Shown here in pieces: positions 4,748-41,412 of a stretch of 41,685 bases of DNA. Each line of letters opens with the position of its first letter. Positions within the stretch are counted from its first letter, which is position 1. The notes under the pieces were generated by a model. The model saw only the letters and a program-made list of their open reading frames with translations, was not told where the DNA came from and ran no database searches. The stretch spans positions 1 to 41,685 of the forward strand of contig JAGNBF010000069.1 in the NCBI GenBank assembly GCA_018004935.1. The letters are read 5' to 3'. The position numbers were made by a program, and so were the translations under genes. The stretch comes from Chloroflexota bacterium (GTDB taxonomy: Bacteria; Chloroflexota; Anaerolineae; Promineifilales; Promineifilaceae).

Positions 4748-4875
4748 GAACGCCCAACAAAAATTTATTGACTGATTCGCATTTTTTGATTTTACAAGAG
4801 GGTGAACAGCCTGAAAGGCCGTTCTACATCTTGTATGGGCGTTCCTACGCGCAAACTCCCATACGCACAAACTTG

Positions 4876-4992
4876 TTTTCGTAGGCGTTCCCCATGAACG
4901 GGGCGCTCACCCCGAGGAATGAAAATCTGTAGGACAATTTTATAAATTGTTCACTGGGCGATTTACCCAATCGCCCTACATTTTCCGAGGAG
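4876..4992 (+). repeat. Composite repeat R1 ending in a Shine-Dalgarno sequence, copy ahead of cydA
   Basis: Order of parts: TTTTCGTAGGCGTTCCCCATG, a small variable hairpin (AACGGGGCGCTCACCCC), GAGGAATGAAAAT, then two back-to-back hairpins (GGACAATTTTATAAATTGTTC and GGGCGATTTACCCAATCGCCC), then CTACATTTTCCGAGGAG. The terminal GAGGAG is five bases ahead of the cydA start. Full copies lie at 6624-6740 and 41474-41584 and partial ones at 6474-6560, 24666-24695 and 32860-32916. Confidence 0.8.
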
Positions 4993-4997
4993 ACCCA

Positions 4998-6380
4998 ATG
5001 ATGGATCCTGTTTCCCTTTCCCGTATTCAGTTTTCGATTACCACCATTTACCACTTTTTCTTTGTCCCCTTGACCCTGGGCCTTTCTATCCTGGTGGCCC
5101 TCATGGAGACAATTTATGTCCGTACCAACCAGGAAGTGTACAAAAAGATGGCAAAATTCTGGGGTAAGCTATTCCTCATTAACTTTGCTATGGGGGTTGT
5201 GACCGGTATCGTACAGGAGTTCCAATTCGGTATGAACTGGTCAGAATATTCTCGCTTTGTCGGTGACATCTTTGGTGCTCCTCTGGCAGTAGAAGCCTTG
5301 GCCGCATTTTTTCTGGAATCCACCTTCTTGGGCATCTGGATTTTTGGGTGGGAAAAGCTATCCAAAGGCTGGCACGCCGTCACCATCTGGCTGGTGGCTC
5401 TGGCAACCAATCTTTCCGCCTTCTGGATTCTGGCGGCCAACTCGTTTATGCAACAGCCAATCGGTTACATCCTACGCAATGGCCGCGCCGAAATGACCGA
5501 CTTCTTCGCCCTCATCCTCAACCCCAACTTGTGGGTACAACTACCGCATGTGTTGGCGGGTGGTTTTGTTACCGCCGGATTCTTTATGATGGGGATCAGT
5601 GCCTATCATCTACTCCGGCAAAAAGAGTTAGATTTCTTCCGCCGCTCGTTCCAGATTGCCGCTATTATCGGCTTCTTGGGTATTAGTATGAGCATTCTGA
5701 CAGGGCATAGTCAGGCACAACACATGGTCGAGACGCAACCGATGAAGATGGCGGCCGCGGAAGCTGTTTGGGAAACAGAAAACCCGGCAGGTATGTCCCT
5801 CTTCACCATTGGCAACGAGACAGAACGACGTGATGTGTTCGCCATTCGTATTCCCCGCCTGCTCAGTCTGTTAGCCTTCAATCAACTCAACGGCACAGTA
5901 CAGGGAATCAATGATTTGCAGGCCCAGTACGAAGCGCAGTACGGGCCAGGCAATTATGTGCCCCCGGTAGCCGTCAGTTATTGGAGTTTCCGCATAATGG
6001 TTGGAGCCGGGTTTGTTATGCTGGCCTTAGCCATCTATGGCCTATATCTGGTCATGGCCGAACAACTCACCTACCAACCCCAATGGCTCAAGCTATTTCC
6101 ACTCGTCATCATCTTGCCCTACGTTGCCAACAGTACCGGCTGGATTCTCACCGAAGTGGGACGTGCGCCCTGGATTGTGTATGGCCTGATGACGATCGAA
6201 TCGGCAGTGTCACCGAACGTAACAAGTGGCATGGTCTTGACCTCACTCATCGTTTTTACCCTGCTTTACGGTGGCCTGATGGCGGCGGATATTTACCTGC
6301 TCCAAAAGTTTGCCCGTGGTGATGTGGCCGAAACCGGTCCCCAGGCGATTCCGGGTGTTTCGTTGATTCCTGGTGATTGA
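4998..6380 (+). CDS. cydA: Cytochrome bd ubiquinol oxidase subunit I
   Basis: Integral membrane subunit I of the bd-type terminal oxidase, which oxidises quinol and reduces O2 to water without pumping protons. It is 460 residues long with about nine membrane helices. From ATG 4998 the high-spin heme ligand falls at His19 (YHFFFVPLTLG), the same number as in the E. coli protein, which supports this start. GHSQAQHMVETQPMKMAAAE is the conserved quinol-loop entry, and GRAPWIVYG replaces the usual GRQPW. The quinol loop is of the short type, as is usual outside enterobacteria. GAGGAG, the end of repeat R1, provides the ribosome site. cydB follows after 369 bp of repeats. Confidence 0.97.
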   Translation: MMDPVSLSRIQFSITTIYHFFFVPLTLGLSILVALMETIYVRTNQEVYKKMAKFWGKLFLINFAMGVVTGIVQEFQFGMNWSEYSRFVGDIFGAPLAVEALAAFFLESTFLGIWIFGWEKLSKGWHAVTIWLVALATNLSAFWILAANSFMQQPIGYILRNGRAEMTDFFALILNPNLWVQLPHVLAGGFVTAGFFMMGISAYHLLRQKELDFFRRSFQIAAIIGFLGISMSILTGHSQAQHMVETQPMKMAAAEAVWETENPAGMSLFTIGNETERRDVFAIRIPRLLSLLAFNQLNGTVQGINDLQAQYEAQYGPGNYVPPVAVSYWSFRIMVGAGFVMLALAIYGLYLVMAEQLTYQPQWLKLFPLVIILPYVANSTGWILTEVGRAPWIVYGLMTIESAVSPNVTSGMVLTSLIVFTLLYGGLMAADIYLLQKFARGDVAETGPQAIPGVSLIPGD

Positions 6381-6439
6381 GATAGGGGAACTCGAGACTC
6401 AAAATTTATTTGCGTAACGAAACCCCAAAGAACTTATTT

Positions 6440-6560
6440 TCTTCCTCTCAACCGGAATGAAACACACCCTTGGGCAAATCGTCCGGGCGATTTACAAAAT
6501 CGCCCTACATTTTCGCAGGGGTTCCCCATGGGCCTACGGCGCACCAAGATGAATGAAAAT
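6440..6560. repeat. Partial R1 copy joined to an inverted GGTTGAGAGGAAG element
   Basis: In the cydA-cydB spacer (6381-6749, no gene). TTTCTTCCTCTCAACCGGAA followed by TGAAACACACCC is the inverse of a block at 24696-24730 and is related to 16668-16690. It is fused to GGGCGATTTACAAAATCGCC and CTACATTTTCGCAGGGGTTC of family R1. A TCCGTGTTTC word repeat follows at about 6583-6610. Confidence 0.65.
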
Positions 6561-6623
6561 GACGCCACCATTTTCATCCCCATCCGTGTTTCTTCCTATC
6601 CGTGTTTCCAGTATCAGTGGCTA

Positions 6624-6740
6624 TTTTTGTAGGAGTTCCCCATGTGCCTTTGGCACACCAAGAGGGTTGAAAATCTGTAGGACGATTTTGTAAATCGTCC
6701 ACTGGGCGATTTGCCAAATCGCCCTACATTTTCGTAGGAG
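6624..6740 (+). repeat. Composite repeat R1, full copy ahead of cydB
   Basis: Same order as at 4876-4992: GTAGGAGTTCCCCATG, a small hairpin (GTGCCTTTGGCAC), ACCAAGAGGGTTGAAAAT, the hairpin pair GGACGATTTTGTAAATCGTCC and GGGCGATTTGCCAAATCGCC, and the tail CTACATTTTCGTAGGAG. The last AGGAG is nine bases before the cydB ATG and is its only plausible ribosome site. Confidence 0.8.
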
Positions 6741-6749
6741 TATCAAAAA

Positions 6750-7763
6750 ATGGACCTCAATATTCTCTGGTTTGTCCTGATCGGTGTGTTGTACATCGGT
6801 TTTTTTGTCTTGGAAGGCTTTGATTTTGGTGTAGGGATCTTGCTTCCGTTTTTGGGCAAAAACGACAAGGAACGGCGCATGATCATCAACACCATTGGCC
6901 CCCACTGGGATGGGAACGAAGTGTGGTTGCTGACGGCGGGTGGCGCGACCTTTGCCGCGTTTCCCGAATGGTATGCTACGCTGTTCAGTGGCTTTTATAT
7001 GGCCTTGTTCCTGCTGTTGGTGGCCTTGATTTTGCGCGGGGTGGCGTTTGAGTTTCGCAGTAAAGACAGTAACCCCCGGTGGCGCTTATTCTGGGATTGG
7101 GCCATCTTTGTGGGGAGTTTTCTGCCTGCCTTACTCATGGGGGTGGCGTTTGCCAATCTGGTGCGGGGTGTGCCCATTGATGCAGAGATGAACTATGTGG
7201 GCGGATTCTGGAACCTGCTCAATCCTTATGCGCTGGTGGCGGGATTAGCTACGGTAGCTGTGTTTACGTTATACGGGGCGATTTTTTTGACCTTAAAGTT
7301 GGGGCAACCACTCCAGGAGAAGGCCCAAATTATTGCCCAGTGGTTATGGTTTCCGGCCCTGGTGTTGATTGTCCTGTTTTTTGCCGGAACTTATCTGGCT
7401 ACAGATGCTCTGGAGCAGTTAGGGGTGAATCCAGGGGTTATTCCTATTACGGCTGGGTTAGGTTTGTTGATGGTGGGGCCGTTGTTGCGGCGCAAGATGG
7501 ACGGTTGGGCATTTGGGTTGACAGCGTTAGCGGTTGTCAGTGCTACTGCCACCATTTTCTTGATTCTCTTCCCCCGGGTGATGGTGTCGAGCCTGAACCC
7601 GGAGTTCAGCCTGACGATTTACAATGCCTCATCTAGCCCCTACACGTTGCGGGTGATGACGATTGTGGCCCTGACGTTGGTTCCGGTGGTGCTGATTTAT
7701 CAGGGGTGGACGTATTGGGTGTTTCGTAAGCGGATTACGGAAGAGACGGTGTTGGAGTATTAA
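6750..7763 (+). CDS. cydB: Cytochrome bd ubiquinol oxidase subunit II
   Basis: Integral membrane subunit II of the bd oxidase, 337 residues with about eight membrane helices. The N-terminus (LEGFDFGVGILLPFLG) and IGPHWDGNEVWLLTAGGA are the family hallmarks; RGVAFEFRSKD follows helix III. It pairs with CydA, which holds the hemes. The start is fixed by AGGAG nine bases upstream, contributed by repeat R1. The stop is followed one base later by a short frame (7765-7812) that overlaps the beginning of the cydDC gene, so oxidase and maturation transporter probably form one transcript. Confidence 0.97.
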   Translation: MDLNILWFVLIGVLYIGFFVLEGFDFGVGILLPFLGKNDKERRMIINTIGPHWDGNEVWLLTAGGATFAAFPEWYATLFSGFYMALFLLLVALILRGVAFEFRSKDSNPRWRLFWDWAIFVGSFLPALLMGVAFANLVRGVPIDAEMNYVGGFWNLLNPYALVAGLATVAVFTLYGAIFLTLKLGQPLQEKAQIIAQWLWFPALVLIVLFFAGTYLATDALEQLGVNPGVIPITAGLGLLMVGPLLRRKMDGWAFGLTALAVVSATATIFLILFPRVMVSSLNPEFSLTIYNASSSPYTLRVMTIVALTLVPVVLIYQGWTYWVFRKRITEETVLEY

Positions 7764-19788: not shown

Positions 19789-21251
19789 CAACCGACAATC
19801 TCACCCATATTTTGGATATAGCCGTAACGCGGTGGCAAAAGCATGAACCATGGGATGATTTGATCGAAATGGACGATACCAAACAGGCAGAGGCCTTACC
19901 GTCGTTATTGGGTGTTGTCGCTACATTGGATCTGCTTCAACCTGTAGAAATGCCAACTGAAGAAGCTATGGTTAATGATCGTAATGCGTTTTTGAGCGAA
20001 ATTGCCCATTGGCAACTCCAGGCCGTATCGCCAACGGGGCTGAAACGTCTTAAAGAGTGGTTAACAAATCATCGCCTGCGGTTGAGCCATCGCTCACCCT
20101 GGTTACGAAAGGAGAAACCCCTCATGAACAGCATTCTGGCCAAATTTGTTATGATTTTTGCGTTGACCTTTGTTGCTATCGGCGGAACCGCGGCCGCGGC
20201 CGCGGAGAGTCTCCCCGATTCCACCCTCTACCCAGTCAAGTTGGTCATGGAAGATACCCAACTGGCTCTGACCCAAGACCCGGCCCATTCCGTTGACCTC
20301 TACCTCACCTTTGCCCAAGAACGGATTGAGGAAATGGCCCAAATGGCCCGCGCCGGTGTCGATCCCGGTGAAGCAACTGTCCTGCGACTGGAAAATCACC
20401 TGCAAAATGCAATGGTTCAGTCAGCCCAACTCTCTGATAACACGGCTTTACTAACTTTGCTGGAGCAGATGCAACAAACCGTGCAAACCCAATCGCAACT
20501 GCTGGCCCAGAGTCAACTAAATGTCTCTGCCCAGACCCAGACCCGCTTGATTCAGGCACAAACCATTTGTAATCAGGTGCTGGCCGAGGTCGAAACCGGG
20601 TTACAAGACCCCGCACTTTTCCGTGAGCGGCACACCGGGAATCGCCCCGAAGGGACACCTCCCTGGCCCGAAATGACCCCCAGACCCAATAGCACCGCGA
20701 CGCCAGACGGAACGCCTAACTGTGCTGATTGCACACCCACTGGCGATGCTCATCAGTATGGCCCGCAACCTACTCAACCTGGCCCTGGCGGACCAGGCGG
20801 TAATCCCAATGCTACTCCCCAGCCCACCGGCACGGCCTACCAAAATGGCCCACAACCCACCCAAGCTGGTCCTGGCGGACCAGGCGGTAATCCCAATGCC
20901 ACTCCCCAGCCCACCGGCACGGCCTACCAAAATGGCCCACAACCCACCCAAGCTGGCCCTGGCGGACCAGGCGGTAATCCCAATGCTACTCCCCAGCCCA
21001 CCGGCACGGCCTACCAAAATGGCCCACAACCCACCCAAGCTGGCCCTGGTGGACCAGGGGGTAATCCCAATGCTACTCCCCAACCTACCGGCACGGCCCA
21101 CCAAAATGGCCCGCAACCCACCCAAGCTGGCCCCGGTCAGCCCGGGGGTAATCCCAATGCCACCCCCCAGGCAACTTGTACGGCCATTCCTCAAGGAACA
21201 CAAACCACACCTTCAGGTACAAATGGCACGGGTGGAAACTTCGGGCATTAA
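19785..21251 (+). CDS. DUF5667-type membrane protein with tandem Gly/Pro-rich repeats, sigma factor partner
   Basis: A 488-residue protein translationally coupled to the ECF sigma gene. Residues 1-110 are cytoplasmic and mostly helical; one membrane segment lies at about 118-140 (AKFVMIFALTFVAIGG). The external part begins ESLPDSTLYPVKLVMEDTQL with LYLTFAQERIEEM, the pattern of DUF5667, followed by a Gln-rich coiled-coil-like helix. From residue about 325 come five near-identical 29-residue units (QPTQAGPGGPGGNPNATPQ and PTGTAYQNGP), a collagen-like, flexible stalk that may span the envelope. By analogy with other ECF/DUF5667 pairs the cytoplasmic part could hold the sigma factor, but no zinc-binding anti-sigma motif is present. 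Confidence 0.8.
   Translation: MTTDNLTHILDIAVTRWQKHEPWDDLIEMDDTKQAEALPSLLGVVATLDLLQPVEMPTEEAMVNDRNAFLSEIAHWQLQAVSPTGLKRLKEWLTNHRLRLSHRSPWLRKEKPLMNSILAKFVMIFALTFVAIGGTAAAAAESLPDSTLYPVKLVMEDTQLALTQDPAHSVDLYLTFAQERIEEMAQMARAGVDPGEATVLRLENHLQNAMVQSAQLSDNTALLTLLEQMQQTVQTQSQLLAQSQLNVSAQTQTRLIQAQTICNQVLAEVETGLQDPALFRERHTGNRPEGTPPWPEMTPRPNSTATPDGTPNCADCTPTGDAHQYGPQPTQPGPGGPGGNPNATPQPTGTAYQNGPQPTQAGPGGPGGNPNATPQPTGTAYQNGPQPTQAGPGGPGGNPNATPQPTGTAYQNGPQPTQAGPGGPGGNPNATPQPTGTAHQNGPQPTQAGPGQPGGNPNATPQATCTAIPQGTQTTPSGTNGTGGNFGH
20758..21192 (+). repeat. Five tandem 87-bp coding repeats
   Basis: Each unit encodes 29 residues of the Gly/Pro-rich stalk of the DUF5667-type protein. The units are almost identical at DNA level, including synonymous positions, with the first and last diverged, which points to recent unequal exchange or slippage. 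Copy number probably varies among strains. Confidence 0.85.
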
Positions 21252-31167: not shown

Positions 31168-32610
31168 TTAATCAAGGGAAAGAGACGCCGCTGAAACAGA
31201 AGAAGCGTCATGTGCAGGCAAAGGGAATTGGACAACAAACATGCTACCGAGACCATTTTGCACCGGAGTTGTGACATGGATTGCGCCACCATGCGCCCGC
31301 ACGATGTCGTAAGCAATTGCCAAGCCTAACCCTGTGCCGCCTGCATCGCTGTGTTCCCTGGCGCGTGAGCGATCTGTTTCTACCCGGTAGAATCGTTCAA
31401 ATAAATGGGGGAGATGGGCGGCGGGAATGCCAGGGCCGCTATCCTGAACGGCGATGTGCAGTCCAGCCGGATTTTGTTCTGCCGTGATGGTAATGTGCCC
31501 ATTTTTCGGGGTGTATTTCACGGCATTGTCCAGTAAATTCAAAAAGAGCCGAAGCAATAAATCCATATCCCCTTGTAGGGTCAATTCGGGCGGGATGGTT
31601 TCGGTCAGGGTGATAGCTTTCGCGGCCGCTAATGGTCGTATTTGATCCACCACCGAGCCTAAAAAATCTTGTACCTGGATGGTTTCCTGGTGCAGTGGAA
31701 TCTGTCCCTTATCCAGCCGGGCCATGAAGAGTAAATCATTGCTCAGACGAATCAGCCGGTTTACCTGCCCTTCCATCTCTTGCAACGTTTCAATGTAGGC
31801 TTGCCGCGGCCGCGGCTGGCTCAAGGTTACTTCTAGCCGTCCTTTTAAGGTGGTCAATGGGGTGCGTAACTCGTGGGCGGCATCACCGGTGAAACGACGC
31901 TCGCGGGCAAAGGCACTCTGCAAACGATCCAACATGGCATCGAGAGTCGCCGCCAACCGCCCTACCTCGTCGGCTGGGCCGATGTAGCCAATCCGCTGTT
32001 GTAACTCGTCGGCCTGGATGGCCTGGGCGGTGCGGGTGATCCGGTCAATAGGGCGGAGAGCGCGTCCGGCCAGGAAAAACCCCCCTATTCCGGCCAGTAG
32101 CCAGGCCAGGGGCAAACCCCATAGAATCTGGGTGCGTAAACTCTGTAACGTGGCGAGCGTTGGCTCTAACTCGCGGACAACTTGAAGCCAGCCGGTAACG
32201 CGGCCGCGATTCACTTCTCGGCTGTATACCCGCCACAGTTCACCCTGGTTCGTCAGCGTCACATACCCTGCCGCCGGTGTGTCCCAAACCGGTGCGTCCG
32301 GCTCACGCCCCAACTGATCCCACAGTTCCCCATCCGGCGTGACAAGATAGACCATAAAGTCATCGTTGAGCAAACGGGCTGTCTGGGGAATATGGTCCAT
32401 GTTCTGGAAGGCTAATCGCTCATTCTCTACCCGAATATTGAGGAGAGCCTGGGTTGCAAGGACATCCAACCCAATGTCCAACTGAGCCAGCAGGTTGTGG
32501 CGCAGTTGCAGATAGAGGTAAGTGGCAAAAAGCAGGAGAATTAGCCCCAGCGAAGCTGTATACCAGAGGGTAAGGCGAGTCCGAATAGGTAAAGCGAATC
32601 GTTTAGGCAT
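31168..32610 (-). CDS. Two-component sensor histidine kinase
   Basis: A 480-residue membrane kinase. Helix 1 lies at about 14-35 and helix 2 at about 158-180, enclosing an external sensor domain of about 120 residues. HAMP follows (ALRPIDRITRTAQAIQADEL), then the phosphoacceptor His246 in FTGDAAHELRTPLTTLKGRL, the N box LLRLFLNLLDNAVKYTP, G1 DSGPGIP and G2 GGTGLGLAIAYD. It should phosphorylate the OmpR-type regulator encoded 331 bp upstream. The start chosen (MPKRFALPIRTRLTLWYT) fits the family; no ribosome site is visible, and the longer frame to 32721 is encoded in repeat sequence. Confidence 0.93.
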   Translation of the reverse strand: MPKRFALPIRTRLTLWYTASLGLILLLFATYLYLQLRHNLLAQLDIGLDVLATQALLNIRVENERLAFQNMDHIPQTARLLNDDFMVYLVTPDGELWDQLGREPDAPVWDTPAAGYVTLTNQGELWRVYSREVNRGRVTGWLQVVRELEPTLATLQSLRTQILWGLPLAWLLAGIGGFFLAGRALRPIDRITRTAQAIQADELQQRIGYIGPADEVGRLAATLDAMLDRLQSAFARERRFTGDAAHELRTPLTTLKGRLEVTLSQPRPRQAYIETLQEMEGQVNRLIRLSNDLLFMARLDKGQIPLHQETIQVQDFLGSVVDQIRPLAAAKAITLTETIPPELTLQGDMDLLLRLFLNLLDNAVKYTPKNGHITITAEQNPAGLHIAVQDSGPGIPAAHLPHLFERFYRVETDRSRAREHSDAGGTGLGLAIAYDIVRAHGGAIHVTTPVQNGLGSMFVVQFPLPAHDASSVSAASLSLD

Positions 32611-32666
32611 TAGATATGCGGTGTGAAGCGTGAGGGTTGAGTTCTCAGAGTGCCCCCAGGTTCCTA

Positions 32667-32766
32667 CATCTTTTTCCAGACTTCGCTGGGAAAAAGGTGT
32701 AAACACGGATAGGAAGAACACGGATAAAAGCTAAAACCATCCGTGTTTCTCCTATCCGTGTTTACA
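32667..32766. repeat. Word-iterated hairpin (AACACGGATA)
   Basis: AAACACGGATAGGAAGAACA then CGGATAAAAG pairs with ATCCGTGTTTCTCCTATCCG. TCTTTTTCCAGACTTCGCTG then GGAAAAAGG at 32670-32698 forms a second stem. Same word as at 15983-16062 and 33652-33714. Confidence 0.6.
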
Positions 32767-32941: not shown

Positions 32942-33628
32942 CTATAAATTCCCGGTGTTTCCCAGTAGCCGATACCCCACGCCGCGAATCGTCTCAATTA
33001 CCGTCTGGCCGCCGACCTTTTCAATTTTGCGCCGCAAGTAACCAATGTACACATCTACCACGTTGGATTCATTGTAAAAATCAAAATTCCAGACGTGTTC
33101 GCCGATCTGGGTGCGGGTCAATACCTGGTTGGGATGGCGCATGAGATATTCAAGGACGGCGTATTCACGGGGACTGGGATCAAGCGGCTGATCCTGGCAT
33201 GTGACCTGCCGGGTGGCGGTGTTCATCGCCAGATCACCCACTCGCAACACCGTTCCTGTTTGGAGTGGTGGGCGACGCAACAGGGCACGAACACGAGCCA
33301 ACAGTTCGAGGAAAGCAAATGGTTTGACCAGATAATCGTCGGCTCCTGCATCTAACCCTTCAACGCGGTTGTCTATGGTGTCTCGAGCCGTGAGGATGAG
33401 GGTAGGGGTTTTGAGGTTGCGGCCGCGTAATTGGCGCAATAGTTCCAGCCCATTTAATTTGGGGAGTAGCACATCAAGAATGAAGACATCATATGCGGCC
33501 GCGAGAGCATAGTCCCATCCTTCAAGGCCATCCCCGGCCACATCTACGGCATAACCGGCTTCTGTCAACCCCTGCCGTACAAAATGGGCAATCCCTGGCT
33601 CATCTTCAACAAGAAGAATTCGCATCAT
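32942..33628 (-). CDS. OmpR-family response regulator
   Basis: A 228-residue regulator with receiver and winged-helix domains. The receiver has the acidic pair Glu8/Asp9 (LLVEDEPGIAH), the phosphoacceptor Asp52 (VFILDVLLPKLNG), Thr80 (LILTAR) and Lys102 (DYLVKPFAFLELLARVRALL). The C-terminal domain (about 128-225) ends with VYIGYLRRKIEKVGG and TVIETIRGVGYRLL. It is paired with the downstream kinase gene. The ribosome site TAGGAG is part of the word TTATTTTCGTAGGAG shared with repeat R1. Two GCGGCCGC octamers lie within it. Confidence 0.95.
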   Translation of the reverse strand: MMRILLVEDEPGIAHFVRQGLTEAGYAVDVAGDGLEGWDYALAAAYDVFILDVLLPKLNGLELLRQLRGRNLKTPTLILTARDTIDNRVEGLDAGADDYLVKPFAFLELLARVRALLRRPPLQTGTVLRVGDLAMNTATRQVTCQDQPLDPSPREYAVLEYLMRHPNQVLTRTQIGEHVWNFDFYNESNVVDVYIGYLRRKIEKVGGQTVIETIRGVGYRLLGNTGNL

Positions 33629-33721: not shown

Positions 33722-34150
33722 TCATTCCTCTTGGTGAGCATTCGCTCATGGGGAACTCCTACGAAAATAAGTTGCGAGTGGCGAGTTCGCGAGTGGCGAG
33801 TTTGCGAGTGGCGAGTGAATGCTTACTCGCCCACTCGCTACTCGCATACTCACTATTTTCATTCCTCTTGGTGAGCGACATGCTCATGGGGAACTCCTGC
33901 GAAAATAAGTTGCGAGTGGCGAGTTTGCGAGTGGCGAGTGAATGCTTACTCGCCCACTCGCTACTCGCATACTCACTATTTTCATTCCTCTTGGTGAGCG
34001 ACATGCTCATGGGGAACTCCTGCGAAAATAAGTTGCGAGTGGCGAGTTTGCGAGTGGCGAGTGAATGCTTACTCGCCCACTCGCTACTCGCATACTCACT
34101 ATTTTCATTCCTCTTGGTGTGCCAAAGGCACATGGGGAACCGCCAGGAAA
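33722..34150. repeat. 123-bp tandem repeat array built of an R1 segment and a GCGAGTG hairpin
   Basis: Two identical-looking 123-bp units (from 33851 and 33974), one longer diverged unit before them and a partial one after. Each unit carries CTCTTGGTGAGC...GCTCATGGGGAACTCC, the inverse of the first part of R1, then TTGCGAGTGGCGAGT words and their complement ACTCGCCCACTCGCTACTCG. The open frames across it simply follow the repeat period (123 = 3 x 41) and are not genes. Confidence 0.8.
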
Positions 34151-34262
34151 ATAAGACACGGTGAGGGAGTGAAAGGACGAGACGGCGAAAAAAAGTCGCC
34201 GTGTCACCGCGTTGTCACCTCTTCCGTGGGGTCAAGTGTAACCGAGAACGGTAAGAAAATGA

Positions 34263-34628: not shown

Positions 34629-34692
34629 TTAACCCTTGAATAACTTAAAATTAACGTCTGCTTAACTCCCCCTTAAAACAGGACTTTTATCC
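34629..34692 (+). promoter_or_regulatory. Pho-box-like array (five 11-bp-phased words) with -10 box
   Basis: TTAACC at 34629, ATAACT at 34640, TTAACG at 34651, TTAACT at 34662 and TTAAAA at 34673 follow each other at exactly 11-bp steps. TTATCC at 34687 is 14 bp after the start of the last word. PhoB/PhoP-type regulators bind TTAAC-type direct repeats of this period in place of a -35 box. The next plus-strand gene is the choice-of-anchor I protein at 35326, after about 600 bp of hairpins. Confidence 0.6.
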
Positions 34693-34776
34693 TCTTCCCT
34701 GGTGTGTTGCTCAACACATTCTTGTTGGCCTTGATCAGAATCCGATATCCCATCAGACCTGAACCTGGTTGATATG

Positions 34777-34884
34777 GGTCTTCAGGATTTCGTGGGGTAC
34801 GGGCAACCCTTGTGGTTGCCCCACACTGGGCAGGCACAAGGCCAGCCCGTACATCTGGTGTCAACCCCCTGAATTCCCAAAGAG
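34777..34884 (-). repeat. R2 repeat, inverted copy
   Basis: GGTCTTCAGGATTTCGTGGG then GTACGGGCAACCCTTGTGGT and GGTGTCAACCCCCTGAATTC, the inverse of 2911-3020 with all parts in order. Confidence 0.7.
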
Positions 34885-34922
34885 CCGTTGATATCTGCTG
34901 GTTGTTGGCGACTTTTATCTTA

Positions 34923-34997: not shown

Positions 34998-35030
34998 ATA
35001 TTAGTAATCGTTCGCAAATAACTTTTGAGT

Positions 35031-35062
35031 TTGCTGTGGCCGGTCCCCTGACCGAGCCACCC
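35031..35062 (-). repeat. R3 repeat core
   Basis: TGCTGTGGCCGGTCCCCTGA then CCGAGCCAC: core of R3 without the TTAAATAAC flanks. Confidence 0.55.
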
Positions 35063-35115
35063 AACTTAATTTTGAGCGAACCCTTAGTGAACATCTAAAA
35101 ATAACTTCCCGATTT

Positions 35116-35149
35116 AGACCTGACAGGTTTCCGAAAACCTGTCAGGTCT
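35116..35149. repeat. 15-bp-stem hairpin, family R6, copy 2
   Basis: AGACCTGACAGGTTT, loop CCGA, exact complement. Same stem as at 14483-14516. Confidence 0.7.
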
Positions 35150-35210
35150 GTGCGGAACTTATTTTTGGACGATTACTTAGTAATTGTTCAGATTTAACTT
35201 AGCGGTTTTT

Positions 35211-35243
35211 AGATTGCGGCAGTTTTGAAGACTGCCGCAATCT
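35211..35243. repeat. 13-bp-stem hairpin
   Basis: AGATTGCGGCAGT, loop TTTGAAG, exact complement. It lies in the probable long 5' leader of the choice-of-anchor I gene. AACTCGAAACTC word iterations follow at about 35268-35292. Confidence 0.6.
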
Positions 35244-35325
35244 AGCGAACTTATTCACGAACGATACTCGAAACTCTGAACTCGAAACTCCTAACCTGTT
35301 GAGTCTAATCTAAATGGAGGGTCTT

Positions 35326-37110
35326 ATGCAGTTGTCTTCTGTGCGGAAACTGTTGTTTCCTATCGTGTTACCCGTTTTGGCTTTGTATATTTTTCTGGGT
35401 GGTGTCCTGATCCCCAACCCGGTGGCGGCGGATCCATCCCCTAACCACAGTCCGGCGAATAACCCCTTACAACCTACCGAAGCGATTACGCTGACGCTTT
35501 TGGGAACCTATACCAATATCACGGCCACCTTTGGCGAGGGTGCGTCGGAAATTGTGTCGTATGACCCGGTGAGCCAGACGTTGTATGTGGTAAATGGGTT
35601 CGCGGCCGCGATTGATATCCTCGACATCAGTGACCCCACCCTGCCCACCTTGCTCGGCCAGATTGACGTGACCCCCTACGGGGCCAATGTGAACAGTGTG
35701 GCGGTGCAGAATGGTGTGGTCGCGGCCGCGGTCGAAGCCGATCCTCTGCAAAATCCCGGCAAACTGGTGTTCTTTGATCGGGCAGGCAACTACCTCAACG
35801 ATCTTACCATTGGTGCCTTACCCGATATGGTCACATTTAGCCCTGATGGACAAACGGTTCTGGTAGCCAATGAAGGCGAACCCAACAGCGATTATGATAA
35901 CGACCCGGAAGGTTCCGTCACTCTGGTGGACATCTCCGGGGGAGTGGGGTCTGCTACCATTACCAATATTGGCTTTACCGATTTTAATGTTGGTGGCCCC
36001 CGCCACGGTGAACTGCCAACCGCTGTGCGTATCTACGGCCCCAACGCCACCGTCGCTCAGGACATCGAGCCGGAATATATTGCTGTTTCCCCTGACTCCA
36101 GCACCGCTTATGTGACGTTACAAGAAAACAATGCTCTGGCGATCATTGATATAGACACCGCCTATATCACCGCCATTGTGGCTCTGGGTTTCAAAAATCA
36201 TGAGCTGGGTGGGGCGGGCCTGGATGCCAGCGACCGGGACAACATCATCAACATCGCCAACTGGCCGGTGTATGGTATGTATCAGCCGGACTCTATTGCC
36301 GCCTATGAGCAGGGTGGTAACTTGTATCTGGTTACATCCAACGAAGGGGATACCCGCGATTATGATGCCTATGGCGAAGAATCCCGTGTCAGTGGTTTAG
36401 ACCTGGACCCCGGTGTATTTACCGATGCGGCCACCTTACAACTGCCGGAAAACCTGGGCCGTTTGACGGTGACAACGGCCAACGGCGATACGGACGGGGA
36501 TGATGATTTTGACGCCCTGTATGTTCCCGGTGCACGTTCTTTCTCTATCTGGTCTGCCACCGGTCAACTGGTTTATGACAGCGGGGATGCTCTGGAGCAG
36601 ATTACCGCCACTGTCTATCCGGATGATTTCAACAGCAATAACGATGAAAACAACAGCTTTGACAATCGCAGTGATAACAAAGGGCCGGAACCGGAAGCCC
36701 TGGCCCTGGGGCGGATTTATGATCGGGTGTATGCCTTTGTCGGTTTGGAGCGGATGGGCGGCATCATGGTGTTTGATGTGACCGATCCGATGGCTCCCGA
36801 ATTTGTGCAATACGTGAATAACCGCGATTTTGCGGGCGACCCGGAAGCGGGAACTGCCGGTGATCTGGGGCCGGAAGGGCTGTACTACATTCAAGGGAAT
36901 GTCAGCCCTAATGGTGCGCCCATTCTGGCTGTTGCCAATGAAATCAGTGGCTCCACCACCCTCTATGGTGTTCAAGTTCCTGCGCCCACCGATGTCAACC
37001 TGACTGCTTTCACGGGTATGCAGGTGTTGGATGGAATGATGGTTCTGGCGGCTGGGGTGGGACTGTTGGGGCTGTTGGGGCTGTGGCGGATTTTGCGGCC
37101 GCGAAGATAA
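35326..37110 (+). CDS. Choice-of-anchor I family secreted beta-propeller protein
   Basis: A 594-residue exported protein: signal peptide (residues about 8-35), then a beta-propeller of the choice-of-anchor I type. Hallmarks are FSPDGQTVLVANEGEPNSDY, DIEPEYIAVSPDSSTAYVTL with QENNALAIID, QPDSIAAYEQGGNLYLVTSN with EGDTRDY, and GPEPEALALGRIYDRVYAFV. The C-terminus (LDGMMVLAAGVGLLGLLGL then WRILRPRR) is a single helix with a basic tail, as in sorted or membrane-anchored surface proteins. Members are sometimes annotated as phytase- or alkaline phosphatase-like; activity here is unknown, but the Pho-box-like array upstream would fit a phosphate-related role. ATG 35326 has GGAGGG at good spacing; ATG 35314 is less likely. 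Confidence 0.88.
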   Translation: MQLSSVRKLLFPIVLPVLALYIFLGGVLIPNPVAADPSPNHSPANNPLQPTEAITLTLLGTYTNITATFGEGASEIVSYDPVSQTLYVVNGFAAAIDILDISDPTLPTLLGQIDVTPYGANVNSVAVQNGVVAAAVEADPLQNPGKLVFFDRAGNYLNDLTIGALPDMVTFSPDGQTVLVANEGEPNSDYDNDPEGSVTLVDISGGVGSATITNIGFTDFNVGGPRHGELPTAVRIYGPNATVAQDIEPEYIAVSPDSSTAYVTLQENNALAIIDIDTAYITAIVALGFKNHELGGAGLDASDRDNIINIANWPVYGMYQPDSIAAYEQGGNLYLVTSNEGDTRDYDAYGEESRVSGLDLDPGVFTDAATLQLPENLGRLTVTTANGDTDGDDDFDALYVPGARSFSIWSATGQLVYDSGDALEQITATVYPDDFNSNNDENNSFDNRSDNKGPEPEALALGRIYDRVYAFVGLERMGGIMVFDVTDPMAPEFVQYVNNRDFAGDPEAGTAGDLGPEGLYYIQGNVSPNGAPILAVANEISGSTTLYGVQVPAPTDVNLTAFTGMQVLDGMMVLAAGVGLLGLLGLWRILRPRR

Positions 37111-37368: not shown

Positions 37369-37437
37369 GTATAGATACTTTTTATTTCCCTAAGTTCCTC
37401 AGAGTTCCCACCAGTTCCCTTCCCCCTTTTCTAACTC

Positions 37438-37501
37438 TTAACCAACCACAAGAAAAATATTAACAATCACTTTAACAGGGTTTAACACCAGGCCGTTATC
37501 T
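37438..37501 (+). promoter_or_regulatory. Second Pho-box-like array with -10 box, ahead of the glycan cluster
   Basis: TTAACC at 37438, then TTAACA at 37460, 37472 and 37482: the steps are 22, 12 and 10 bp, again on an 11-bp period. TTATCT at 37496 is 14 bp after the last word, the same distance as in the array at 34629. The first gene of the cluster starts at 37639, leaving a leader of about 130 bases that contains iterated AGTTCC words. Confidence 0.55.
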
Positions 37502-37638
37502 TGATTTCTGGTAAATAAGAACGTGATGCGTGATACGTAATGCATTGGTTCCAGAACTATTTGCCCTGAAAAAAAACAAGCGTCAAGGTGAACCAAGTTC
37601 CCAGAGTTCCTAGAATTCCTACAAGTTCCCAACCCGTT

Positions 37639-38646
37639 ATGAAACAAAAAATCCTCTTCATCGGTGGTTCGCTCAACCAGACAACCCAAATGCACAGCAT
37701 CGCCCGGCATTTAGAGGGGGAGTATGACTGCTATTTTTCCCCCATGTATGCCGATGGCCTTCTGCGCCGCCTGGCCCAAGCCGGTTATCTCGACTTCACC
37801 ATCATGGGCGGCCGCTTCCGCCAACAAACCGAAGCGTATCTTAACGAGCATAACTTAAAGGTGGATTACCGGGGTGAGGCCCATGATTACGCCCTGGTGC
37901 TGATGGGAACCGACCTCATCGTGCCGAGGAATGTCCGCGGCCGCAAATTCATCCTCGTCCAGGAAGGCATGACCGACCCGGAAAACCTGGCCTACTATCT
38001 GGTCAAATGGCTTGGTTTGCCCCGTTACCTCGCCAGCACCTCCACCAACGGCCTCTCCAACGCCTACGACCTGTTCTGCGTCGCTTCGGCAGGATACCGC
38101 GACCTCTTCATCCGCAAAGGAGTGCCAGCGGAGAAAATCGCCGTCACCGGCATTCCCAACTACGACAACGCCGCCCGCCTGCTCCACAACGATTTTCCCT
38201 TCCACGACTACGTTCTGGTAGCCACCTCCGATGCGCGGGAGACGGGTAAGTGGGACAACCGCAAAAAATTCATCCGCCACTGCCTGGACGTTGCCAGAGG
38301 GCGTCAGCTACTCTTCAAGCTCCATCCCAACGAAAAACGGGAGCGAGCCATGCGGGAAATTCGCGCTCAGGCCTCGGATGCCCTCATCTTCACCGACAGC
38401 CCGATTGATCCGATGATCGCCAACTGCGCCACCCTCATCACCCAATATTCGACGGTTGTCTACACCGGCATTGCCCTGGGCAAAGAAGTCCACTCCTACT
38501 TCGATGTGAATATGCTCAAACGGCTGGCCCCCATTCAAAACGGGGGTACATCAGGAATGCACATCGCGGCCGCATGCCGCACCCTACTGACAAGTAAACA
38601 GTGGCTAGTGAATAGTGAACTGTCACCTTTCGCTATCACAGCCTAA
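37639..38646 (+). CDS. CDP-glycerol phosphotransferase/glycosyltransferase-like protein
   Basis: A 335-residue cytoplasmic protein with a GT-B/TagF-like fold. The N-terminal KILFIGGSLNQTTQMHSIAR is a Rossmann start; the C-terminal half has LLFKLHPNEKRERAMREI and ANCATLITQYSTVVYTGIAL with GKEVHSYFD, the HPxxx and D/TQYS-type motifs by which CDP-glycerol glycerophosphotransferases and UDP-GlcNAc 2-epimerase-like proteins bind the nucleotide sugar. It probably transfers or processes the product of the downstream cytidylyltransferase. The last 18 codons or so (SKQWLVNSELSPFAITA) are encoded by a hairpin arm and are unlikely to be native. No ribosome site precedes ATG 37639. First gene of a four-gene cluster. 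Confidence 0.75.
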   Translation: MKQKILFIGGSLNQTTQMHSIARHLEGEYDCYFSPMYADGLLRRLAQAGYLDFTIMGGRFRQQTEAYLNEHNLKVDYRGEAHDYALVLMGTDLIVPRNVRGRKFILVQEGMTDPENLAYYLVKWLGLPRYLASTSTNGLSNAYDLFCVASAGYRDLFIRKGVPAEKIAVTGIPNYDNAARLLHNDFPFHDYVLVATSDARETGKWDNRKKFIRHCLDVARGRQLLFKLHPNEKRERAMREIRAQASDALIFTDSPIDPMIANCATLITQYSTVVYTGIALGKEVHSYFDVNMLKRLAPIQNGGTSGMHIAAACRTLLTSKQWLVNSELSPFAITA

Positions 38647-38674
38647 ATACTGTTCACTGGTCACTGTTCACTAC
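38593..38674. repeat. Word-iterated hairpin (AGTGAACAGT) overlapping the 3' end of the preceding gene
   Basis: AACAGTGGCTAGTGAATAGT then GAACTGT pairs with ACTGTTCACTGGTCACTGTT then CACTA. The left arm is read as the C-terminal codons of the upstream gene. Confidence 0.65.
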
Positions 38675-38684
38675 CCACTCCTTT

Positions 38685-39500
38685 ATGCGCCTTCTCACCG
38701 TCATCCAGGCCCGCATGAATTCCAGCCGCTTACCGGGGAAGGTACTGCGGGCGGTGTTGTACGAACCGCTCCTACTGCACCAGATTCGGCGCGTCCAGGC
38801 TTCGCGCTACGTAGATGCCCTCGTCGTCGCCACCACCACCGACCCCGCCGATGATCCCATCGTAGACCTGTGTATCAGCGAAGAAATCCCCTGCTTTCGC
38901 GGCCACCCCACCGACCTGCTCGACCGCCATTATCGGGCCGCCCTCTGGTTCAAAGCTGAAGCCATCGCCAAAATCCCGTCTGATTGCCCCTTGATCGATC
39001 CCGATGTCATCAGCCGGGTCCTGCGCTTTTATCGGGAAAACGCCGACCGCTACGACTATGTGAGCAACCTGCACCCCGCCAGCTACCCCGATGGCAACGA
39101 TGTCGAAGTGATGTCGTTTGCCGCCTTACAAACGGCCTGGCGTACTGCCACCCATCCCTGGGAACGGGAACACACCACCCCCTACCTCTGGGACAACCCG
39201 GATCGCTTTCGCATAGGCAATATCGTCTGGGAAACCGGGCTAGATCATTCACTTAGCCACCGGTGGACGCTTGATTACGAAGCCGACTATGCTTTCATCA
39301 AAGAGGTGTACGAGGCTCTTTATCCACAAAATCGCCTGTTTAGCCTGAACGACATTCTGGCCCTGTTGGAACGTTGTCCCGACATCGCCGCCATCAACCG
39401 ACACCTGGTTGGCGTCAACTGGTATCGCCACCACCTGGGGGAGTTGAAGACGGTGGGGGCTGGGCAGATGAGACTGGAGACTGAGAGACTGAGAGATTAA
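38685..39500 (+). CDS. SpsF-like cytidylyltransferase family protein
   Basis: A 271-residue nucleotidyltransferase of the SpsF/CMP-KDO synthetase superfamily. The nucleotide-binding start is VIQARMNSSRLPGKVL, followed by DALVVATTTDPADDPIVDLC and the metal-binding SDCPLIDPDVI. HPWEREHTTPYLWDNPDRF with HRWTLDYEADY is typical of the SpsF group found in surface polysaccharide clusters. It is expected to activate a sugar or sugar-alcohol with CTP. The final dozen residues (MRLETERLRD) come from a hairpin of GAGACTGA words, so the native end is probably near residue 258. There is no Shine-Dalgarno sequence (ACCCACTCCTTT precedes the ATG). Confidence 0.87.
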   Translation: MRLLTVIQARMNSSRLPGKVLRAVLYEPLLLHQIRRVQASRYVDALVVATTTDPADDPIVDLCISEEIPCFRGHPTDLLDRHYRAALWFKAEAIAKIPSDCPLIDPDVISRVLRFYRENADRYDYVSNLHPASYPDGNDVEVMSFAALQTAWRTATHPWEREHTTPYLWDNPDRFRIGNIVWETGLDHSLSHRWTLDYEADYAFIKEVYEALYPQNRLFSLNDILALLERCPDIAAINRHLVGVNWYRHHLGELKTVGAGQMRLETERLRD

Positions 39501-39545
39501 GAGACTGGTCAGTCTCTCAGTCTCTTAGTCATCTCAGTCTCTTCC
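39471..39545. repeat. Word-iterated hairpin (GAGACTGA)
   Basis: GAGACTGGAGACTGAGAGAC then TGAGAGATTAAGAGACTG, paired with CAGTCTCTCAGTCTCTTAGT then CATCTCAGTCTCTT. It spans the stop codon of the cytidylyltransferase and ends six bases before the next ATG. Confidence 0.75.
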
Positions 39546-39551
39546 CAAAAT

Positions 39552-40409
39552 ATGACCAACCTCAACCATTCCCACCTCGAATCTACCGCCCTGCGCGTGC
39601 GCGAGCATATTATCCGGCTGGCGACGAATGGGGGCTGTTTTATCGGTGCATCCCTCTCCTGTGCTGATCTGATGGTGTATCTGTACCATCATTTTTTGAA
39701 TGTCAGCCAGGAAACGCTGAACGATCCCGACCGGGATTATTTTTTCCTCTCCAAAGGGCATGATGTCCCGGCGTTGTATGGCACGTTTGTGGAATTGGGC
39801 TGGCTGGAGCGGGGGCGGTTGAAAAACCACCTCAAAACGAGCGACAGTATCTACTGGCATCCTAACCGGGCCGTTCCGGGCGTTGAATTTCATGCCGGAT
39901 CATTGGGGCATCTGCTCTCGGTGTCGGTGGGGGTGGCGCTGGATAGCAAAATCCGCGGCCGCACCAATCGCATCGTTGTCATTGTGGGGGATGGCGAACT
40001 GAACGAGGGGTCTAACTGGGAAGCGTGCCTGGTCGCGGCCGCGTACCACCTGGATAACCTGGTCATCGTCGTAGACCGCAACCAGTTCCAGGCCAACGTC
40101 CCCACCGAAAGCCTCATCCCTCTGGAACCGCTTGAAGATAAGTTTGCCGCCTTTGGTTGCCAGGTGATGCGCGTGGACGGCCATGATTTCACCGAACTCC
40201 ATGACACCTTCTGCCAGATACCGTTCCGAACCGGCAAACCCAATGTGATCATCGCCGACACAGTACGCGGCCGCGGCCTGCCCAGTATCGAAAACCGTGC
40301 CGACCGTTGGTTCTGCAACTTCAACTCCGCCGAAATCGCCGCCCTGCTGGAAGAACTGCACGGCCTGACTGGGGCAGAGTTGGCGTCGGAACCGTTGCTG
40401 GTCAGGTGA
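39552..40409 (+). CDS. Transketolase-like protein, N-terminal (ThDP-binding) subunit
   Basis: A 285-residue half transketolase. It binds the thiamine diphosphate pyrophosphate through VIVGDGELNEGSNWEACLVA ending in NLVIVVDRNQFQ (the GDG...N motif), with the substrate-side FLSKGHDVPALYGTF and HAGSLGHLLSVSVGVAL. It must pair with the next gene product, which carries the pyrimidine-binding half. Two-subunit transketolases occur in archaea and some bacteria, and as dedicated enzymes in surface sugar or antibiotic pathways. With SpsF- and TagF-like neighbours, a role in moving a two-carbon ketol unit to make an unusual ketose or branched sugar is likely, but inferred. No ribosome site. Confidence 0.9.
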   Translation: MTNLNHSHLESTALRVREHIIRLATNGGCFIGASLSCADLMVYLYHHFLNVSQETLNDPDRDYFFLSKGHDVPALYGTFVELGWLERGRLKNHLKTSDSIYWHPNRAVPGVEFHAGSLGHLLSVSVGVALDSKIRGRTNRIVVIVGDGELNEGSNWEACLVAAAYHLDNLVIVVDRNQFQANVPTESLIPLEPLEDKFAAFGCQVMRVDGHDFTELHDTFCQIPFRTGKPNVIIADTVRGRGLPSIENRADRWFCNFNSAEIAALLEELHGLTGAELASEPLLVR

Positions 40410-40414
40410 AGAAG

Positions 40415-40503
40415 TATATTGGTGTATTGGTGTATTAGTTATTGATACACCAATACACCAATACACCAATACACCAATACACCAATACACCAATACACCA
40501 ATC
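40415..40503. repeat. Word-iterated hairpin (TTGGTGTA / AATACACC)
   Basis: TATTGGTGTATTGGTGTATT, then AGTTATTGATACACC and six or more further copies of AATACACC. It fills the whole gap between the two transketolase genes; the right arm is longer than the left, so the word has expanded on one side. Confidence 0.8.
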
Positions 40504-40509
40504 TCTCCT

Positions 40510-41412
40510 ATGACCTACGAACAAACCCTCCTCAACCTCGCCTTGACCGATGACCGTTATGTGGTGATGACGGCGGAAAACCGGGCCGCCATTCGTAATT
40601 TACCGGCCCACCTGGGGAACCGGTTTATTGATACCGGCATTACCGAACAGACGATGATTGGCGCGGCCGCGGGGCTGGCGTTATGCGGCCGCATTCCCAT
40701 TACCCACGCCCTCGCCACCTTCCTCACCATGCGGGCCTTTGAGTTCATCCGCACCGATGTCGGCCTGCCTAACCTGCCGGTCAAGCTGGTGGGCGGTGTG
40801 CCCGGCTTCCTCTCCGATGGCAACGGCCCCACCCACCAGGCATTGGAAGATATTTCGCTCATGCGGGGCATTCCCAACATGCACATCTTCTGCCCCGCCG
40901 ACGAACAAGACATGCTCATCGGTTTGCGCCATGTGCTGTCCAGCCCGCACCCGACCTACATCCGTTATAACAACCAGCCCGCCATCTACCAGCACGACCC
41001 GGCCTTTGCTATTGGCAAAGCGGAGCAGATTGGTGAGGGGACAGATGTCGCCATTTTGGTGTATGGCTTGCTTTTCAAACAGGCCCATCAGGCCCGCAAT
41101 TTGCTCAAGGCGCAGGGAATTTCCACCCGTTTGATCAACCTGCGGATGGTGAAACCGATTGATGAGGCGGTGATTTTGGACGCGGCCGCGAACACCCGCC
41201 TGCTCGTTACCGTAGAAGACCATTTCCTGACCGGTGGCCTTTACTCCATCGTCAGCGAACTGCTCATCAAACACCGCCAGATGGCCCACGTCCTGCCCCT
41301 GGCCCTGGAAGACCGCTGGTTCAAACCCGCCCTGCTCAATGATGTCCTCAGCTACGAAGGTTTTACCGGCACCCAGATTGCCCGCAAGATAACTGAGAGA
41401 CTAAAAGAATAG
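40510..41412 (+). CDS. Transketolase-like protein, C-terminal subunit
   Basis: A 300-residue partner of the preceding gene product, with the pyrimidine-binding domain and transketolase C-terminal domain. The catalytic glutamate is in DTGITEQTMIGAAAGLAL (the EQ motif that activates the cofactor). LPVKLVGGVPGFLSDGNGPT with HQALEDISLMRGIPNM is the usual cofactor-side loop, and GTDVAILVYGLLFKQAHQAR begins the C-terminal domain. Four GCGGCCGC octamers are near or inside conserved motifs, including two 22 bp apart around the EQ motif region. No Shine-Dalgarno (CAATCTCTCCT precedes the ATG). It ends the cluster. Confidence 0.9.
   Translation: MTYEQTLLNLALTDDRYVVMTAENRAAIRNLPAHLGNRFIDTGITEQTMIGAAAGLALCGRIPITHALATFLTMRAFEFIRTDVGLPNLPVKLVGGVPGFLSDGNGPTHQALEDISLMRGIPNMHIFCPADEQDMLIGLRHVLSSPHPTYIRYNNQPAIYQHDPAFAIGKAEQIGEGTDVAILVYGLLFKQAHQARNLLKAQGISTRLINLRMVKPIDEAVILDAAANTRLLVTVEDHFLTGGLYSIVSELLIKHRQMAHVLPLALEDRWFKPALLNDVLSYEGFTGTQIARKITERLKE

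Follow-up and report, generated by a model that had tools for sequence, protein, structure and literature searches.

A predicted Pho-box promoter upstream of a choice-of-anchor I gene in Chloroflexota

PhoB boxes are built of 11-nt direct repeats, and the repeated word varies between species (PMC4415409). In the pho box of E. coli, CTGTCAT repeats are bound head-to-tail by PhoB, and the regulator contacts the sigma subunit directly (PMC4415409). The box of the cyanobacterial regulator SphR consists of at least three direct CTTAACCT repeats, with 8-bp units and 3-bp linkers, and lies upstream of pst and phoA genes (PMC1906773). Among the secreted phosphatases of phosphate-limited cells are PhoAaty of cyanobacteria and Psip1, the latter with a predicted beta-propeller (PMC11098088).

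Here we analyzed a possible promoter of this kind in a Chloroflexota genome. The stretch of DNA under study (41,685 nt, hereafter the window) contains an array of short phased words, followed at some distance by a gene of the choice-of-anchor I family. The kind of promoter is known, and in the literature searched, which was covered in part, we found no Pho-box motif for Chloroflexota and no mention of “choice-of-anchor I”. Provisionally, therefore, neither the lineage nor the gene family has been linked to phosphate in that literature.

Phased words and promoter geometry in the window

A first, sequence-only reading of the window had noticed five TTAAC-type words from position 34629 onward in exact 11-bp steps. 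On the + strand these are TTAAC at 34629, ATAAC at 34640, TTAAC at 34651, TTAAC at 34662, and TTAAA at 34673, which together score 23 of 25 letters by direct reading of the sequence. Simulations bear the observation out: when the whole window was simulated 200 times with an order-2 Markov model, five words at 11-bp steps scored 18 at best, and none of the 200 reached 23. Other steps from 8 to 14 bp did not exceed 18 in the real window either. Dinucleotide shuffles gave a mean of 0.54 three-word matches (at most three mismatches) per window, against five overlapping matches observed, and no four-word matches in the 8-Mb genome rank above the two given by this array. The array at 34629-34677 is beyond chance.

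The TTAAC word proves little by itself. It is AT-rich, and genome-wide a loose three-word pattern showed no excess (61 matches against 87 for the reversed control). The analysis therefore turned to longer arrays, an independent matrix, and the spacing of the -10 element, and the argument rests on array length, phase, and context. AT-rich words falling into line by chance between genes would fit the loose counts. This is nevertheless scarcely credible as an account of the array, given that the five-word score is unmatched in the simulations and that the independent matrix, the -10 spacing, and the conservation across phyla at the 11-bp period, all described below, argue against it.

A -10 box follows the array, as had been proposed. 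Its best placement is TATCCT, one base later than the TTATCC suggested at first, because 13 of 21 sister promoters have TAnnnT exactly 15 bp beyond the point where the last word begins (+15), where about 0.3 would be expected per offset; three of the 21 have it one turn further, at +26. These 21 arrays, from which the window sites were excluded, lie upstream of pstS, btaA-like, and choice-of-anchor I genes, and two of them (L057 and L077) appear to be one locus. The window site obeys the +15 rule though it was not used in deriving it. No sigma-70 -35/-10 pair was found there, and the suggestion that direct repeats and a -10 box make up this promoter without a -35 box now has a quantitative form in the +15 spacing. 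This geometry is the one expected where a bound regulator takes the place of the -35 element.

When three words plus this -10 were searched together in the genome, the window site was the single perfect match (0 mismatches) and the genome’s best, and the second-best match (one mismatch) was another array of the window (Table 1). At two mismatches the genome total was 16 against 13 for the reversed control, so that weaker sites are indistinguishable from chance by the full-promoter pattern alone. The other two-mismatch matches had low matrix scores and were set aside, except for a btaA-like site and one site on contig C8. The latter (L002:138-200) is a possible weaker Pho box 5′ of an extracellular solute-binding-protein-like gene, with no -10 at +15.

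Table 1 Features of the window discussed in the text (positions count from the first letter of the window)
Feature	Position	Strand	Remarks
Neighboring two-component system	response regulator 32942-33628, kinase 31168-32721	-	akin to regulators of the metal or RppA type
Pho-box array, five 5-bp words	34629-34677	+	predicted PhoB/PhoP/SphR-type response-regulator binding site
-10 element TATCCT	34688-34693	+	begins 15 bp after the start of the last word; predicted transcription start ~34700
Dispersed repeat A in leader	34776-34886	+	>20 further genome copies, 94-100% identity
Dispersed hairpin repeat B in leader	35000-35185	+	many genome copies; includes perfect hairpin 35116-35149
Hairpin, 17-bp arms, without following T-run	35210-35244	+	read from the sequence
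Choice-of-anchor I gene, 594 aa, predicted promoter target	35326-37110	+	PF22494 2e-141, NF038117 3e-180
Second Pho-box-like array	37427-37486	+	TTAAC 37438, 37460, 37482; TTTAA 37471
Second promoter -10, TATCTT	37497-37502	+	again at +15
Surface-carbohydrate-like gene cluster, predicted target of second promoter	37639-41412	+	operon inferred from orientation and spacing

Predicted Pho boxes on phosphate genes

Boxes with 11-bp phasing were found in the same genome 5′ of pstS on contig C186, of a pst operon on contig C90, and of a btaAB-like gene pair, also on C186. The motif is thus present on pst-type promoters of this genome, where its absence had been named in advance as the finding that would count against a Pho box. 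The pstS array, 94 bp upstream of the gene (TTAACcatccgTTAAAaagaccTTAAC), is among the best genome-wide matches. The second C186 array precedes a DUF3419 (BtaA-type) gene, which is followed by a methyltransferase (BtaB-like) gene. A BtaA/BtaB pair is expected for betaine lipids, which replace phospholipids. This region and its Pho box occupy 4781-4823 and 4844-6823 of locus L048. No BtaA family member was found in the related genomes searched, the family being present in this genome only, and it is possible that the BtaA/BtaB-like genes were gained by transfer.

On C90, the array lies upstream of an operon of pstS, pstC, a fused permease/binding-protein gene, pstB, and phoU. The PstS-like protein encoded there (667 aa, L035:12763-14763) has two substrate-binding domains in one chain, and the adjoining 739-aa gene carries a third. 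Just upstream of the operon are genes for a response regulator and a PnpS/PhoR-like histidine kinase, whose best profile scores are below the curated cut-offs; no PhoB profile match over the cut-off was found in the genome.

Among 30 regions upstream of pstS, taken from this genome and its Chloroflexota relatives, 12 have an array at the 11-bp period (three words scoring at least 12/15), and only 0-2 have one at any single other period between 7 and 17. A matrix was trained on nine boxes of the relatives’ pstS genes only, without the window, and the unit consensus of these boxes is CgTTAACaaAa. With this matrix, the window array has a chain-of-units score of 25.4, against a maximum of 20.7 in 60 simulated windows. 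In the stretches of the genome that were scanned, the only sites above 20 are at pstS (C186), at the btaA-like gene, and at the C90 pst operon, and the scanned stretches of C119, C167, C192, C210, C168, and C196 hold none.

The window’s highest chain score, 28.9 against the same null maximum, belongs to the second array (Table 1), so the choice-of-anchor I gene is flanked by two Pho-type promoters. The first gene of the cluster behind the second promoter encodes a protein of 335 aa that weakly matches surface-carbohydrate glycosyltransferases, and the cluster also includes a cytidylyltransferase gene (38685-39500) and a split transketolase-like pair (39552-40409 and 40510-41412). This arrangement suggests that surface glycan synthesis may be phosphate controlled as well. 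The window holds further repeats: a perfect ATACACCA octamer repeat of 7.2 copies lies between the two transketolase-half genes (40445-40502), and an 87-bp tandem repeat at 20758-21170 (4.7 copies, 92%) forms a 29-residue repeat protein segment within a 488-aa frame.

The regulator acting on the array need not be the one encoded on C90. A two-component system lies in the window itself, with its OmpR-family regulator about 1 kb upstream of the array, and OmpR-family regulators of the metal/RppA type likewise bind direct repeats spaced at roughly one helical turn. The array could then be an operator of this neighbor, which would control choice-of-anchor I upon metals or envelope stress. We regard this as very improbable, since the same array and -10 spacing are found on other contigs and in relatives in front of pstS, pst, and btaAB-like genes, no high-scoring array lies upstream of the system’s own gene, and in relative G007 the identified neighbors of the choice-of-anchor I gene include no such system. 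Between the two-component system and the Pho-box region, positions 33784-34155 contain three tandem copies of a 123-bp unit (96% alike).

The choice-of-anchor I gene, its orthologues, and its leader

The gene downstream of the array had been read as a choice-of-anchor I gene, and both family profiles agree, with scores of 472 bits (cut-off 32, PF22494) and 600 bits (cut-off 300, NF038117), above the curated cut-offs. Translation likely starts at ATG 35326, which is preceded by GGAGGG, rather than at ATG 35314. An AlphaFold2 model (64-row alignment, pLDDT 86.5) has an N-terminal hydrophobic helix, one 7-bladed beta-propeller, and a C-terminal transmembrane helix, which bears a basic tail. In the structure search, the model matched 7-bladed propellers in general (Z ~32), and a phosphotriesterase that is itself a propeller (5hrm) came at Foldseek rank 46. 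Generic propellers dominated this search, and a phosphatase assignment from the fold was dropped. Similarly, the only hits of a PDB search with a profile of 64 relatives were an S-layer YVTN propeller, hydrazine synthase beta, and a weakly matching gluconolactonase, with no phosphatase. The 64 sequences share 34 invariant residues, many of them Glu or Asp in motifs such as NEGEP, EPE, QEN, NEGD, PEPE, and LER; the invariant Glu residues of the domain include E183, E250, E340, E457, and E475. These acidic residues would suit a metal site, but a similar fold is no proof of activity. In other proteins, the domain occurs in fusion with a phytase-like domain (as in the cyanobacterial protein L140), a 5′-nucleotidase C-terminal domain, or an endonuclease/exonuclease/phosphatase domain. 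All three of these families contain phosphate-releasing enzymes. The choice-of-anchor I family may be kin to animal MSP130.

The box accompanies the gene in other genomes. Four to six units lie directly 5′ of the orthologue in the same-family relatives G024, G002, and G007 (L056, L057, and L058), and no array was found upstream of the orthologue in another, G005 (L060). Across phyla, 77 orthologous loci had usable upstream DNA (one genome per species), and 20 of them carry a TTAAC array, against a mean of 0.8 and a maximum of 4 in 200 shuffles. Controls at other periods gave 0-3 loci, and of 775 control segments taken from other parts of these loci, only 3 had an array. The majority of the distant orthologues (57 of the 77 loci) have no TTAAC array at the threshold used (at least 12/15). 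The array-bearing loci come from Cyanobacteria, Chloroflexota, Bacteroidota/Rhodothermota, Acidobacteriota, Desulfobacterota, Verrucomicrobiota, and others, and in the distant orthologues the array lies 46-237 bp from the start codon. As TTAAC is AT-rich and partly palindromic, a few of the distant matches may be due to chance. The E. coli-type word TGTCA also forms 11-bp arrays, at six choice-of-anchor I loci against 0-2 at other periods. One further locus, L059, was uninformative on promoters, its choice-of-anchor I domain lying inside a giant protein. In G007, the choice-of-anchor I gene leads a cluster that encodes an HAD acid-phosphatase-like protein (a match below the Pfam cut-off), SurE, PhoU, PstS, PstC-like, PstA-like, and PstB-like proteins, and PhoU, and three Pho boxes lie within this stretch. 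The presence of the same kind of site before choice-of-anchor I genes in many phyla points to a hitherto unrecognized family role in getting phosphate. Tentatively, and at somewhat less than an even chance, choice-of-anchor I would be both a conserved member of the phosphate-starvation regulon across phyla and a new cell-surface beta-propeller, either a phosphohydrolase or a metal-phosphate-binding scavenger.

In the window, about 700 bp separate the box from ATG 35326, and the leader from the -10 to the ATG (~630 bp) consists about half of dispersed repeats. The sequence-only reading had put some 600 bp of inserted hairpins between box and gene; the spacing and the repeats hold, but inserted repeats make up only part of that length. 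A relative of repeat B, perfect hairpin included, also lies upstream of pstS on C186. Because the orthologues keep the box near the start, the simplest history would be that repeats were inserted between an ancestral promoter and its gene. These insertions may have weakened the promoter’s hold on the choice-of-anchor I gene or uncoupled the two. If uncoupled, a true Pho-box promoter would make only a short leader RNA, and the distance to the ATG, well beyond that in distant orthologues, fits this possibility, as do the dispersed repeats and stable hairpins of the leader. We nevertheless judge it unlikely: the hairpins have no T-runs, the sole, weak terminator-like site (35164-35192) is at chance level, the box and -10 are still the genome’s best and hence without decay, and no other gene is apparent between the promoter and choice-of-anchor I.

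Proposed mechanism and comparison with known Pho boxes

The proposal that the array belongs to a PhoB/PhoP-type activated promoter gains support from the boxes on pst and btaAB-like genes, the -10 at +15, the independent matrix, and the conservation with orthologues. With these, we consider it very probable that the array is a Pho-box promoter at which a phosphorylated regulator would drive expression of the secreted choice-of-anchor I propeller by read-through of the leader. When phosphate is limiting, a response regulator of the OmpR/PhoB family, in its phosphorylated form and most likely the product of the gene next to the C90 pst operon, would bind the 11-bp repeats head-to-tail, and the repeat length would place all bound monomers on one face of the helix. 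The regulator would replace the -35 element and recruit RNA polymerase to TATCCT, with a start near 34700. The transcript would then read through the repeat-lengthened leader into the choice-of-anchor I gene, and the product would be a secreted, membrane-anchored beta-propeller, probably scavenging phosphate at the cell surface. The box, its geometry, the regulon context, and the conservation come from the sequence; the identity of the regulator, the response to phosphate, the read-through, and the role of the protein are what we infer.

A Chloroflexota Pho box with an exact promoter geometry would make Pho regulons readable from genomes of this phylum. A widespread protein family that bears only a placeholder name would also be linked, across phyla, to phosphate scavenging. 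The enzymatic side of this proposal lends itself to direct testing.

Finally, the locus can be set against the systems described above. With PhoAaty and Psip1, the choice-of-anchor I protein would share secretion and, with Psip1, a predicted beta-propeller; the cyanobacterial family member L140 additionally carries the phytase-like domain named above. Like the E. coli PhoB box, the array has 11-nt direct repeat units, for which head-to-tail binding is predicted here; it differs in its core, TTAAC instead of TGTCA, and in having three to six units instead of two. The SphR box has the same architecture, with direct repeats (at least three), an 11-bp period, and a TTAAC core. In contrast to that box, the window array is found in Chloroflexota, where the relatives’ unit consensus is CgTTAACaaAa, the -10 is fixed at +15, and the C90 response regulator is the candidate regulator.
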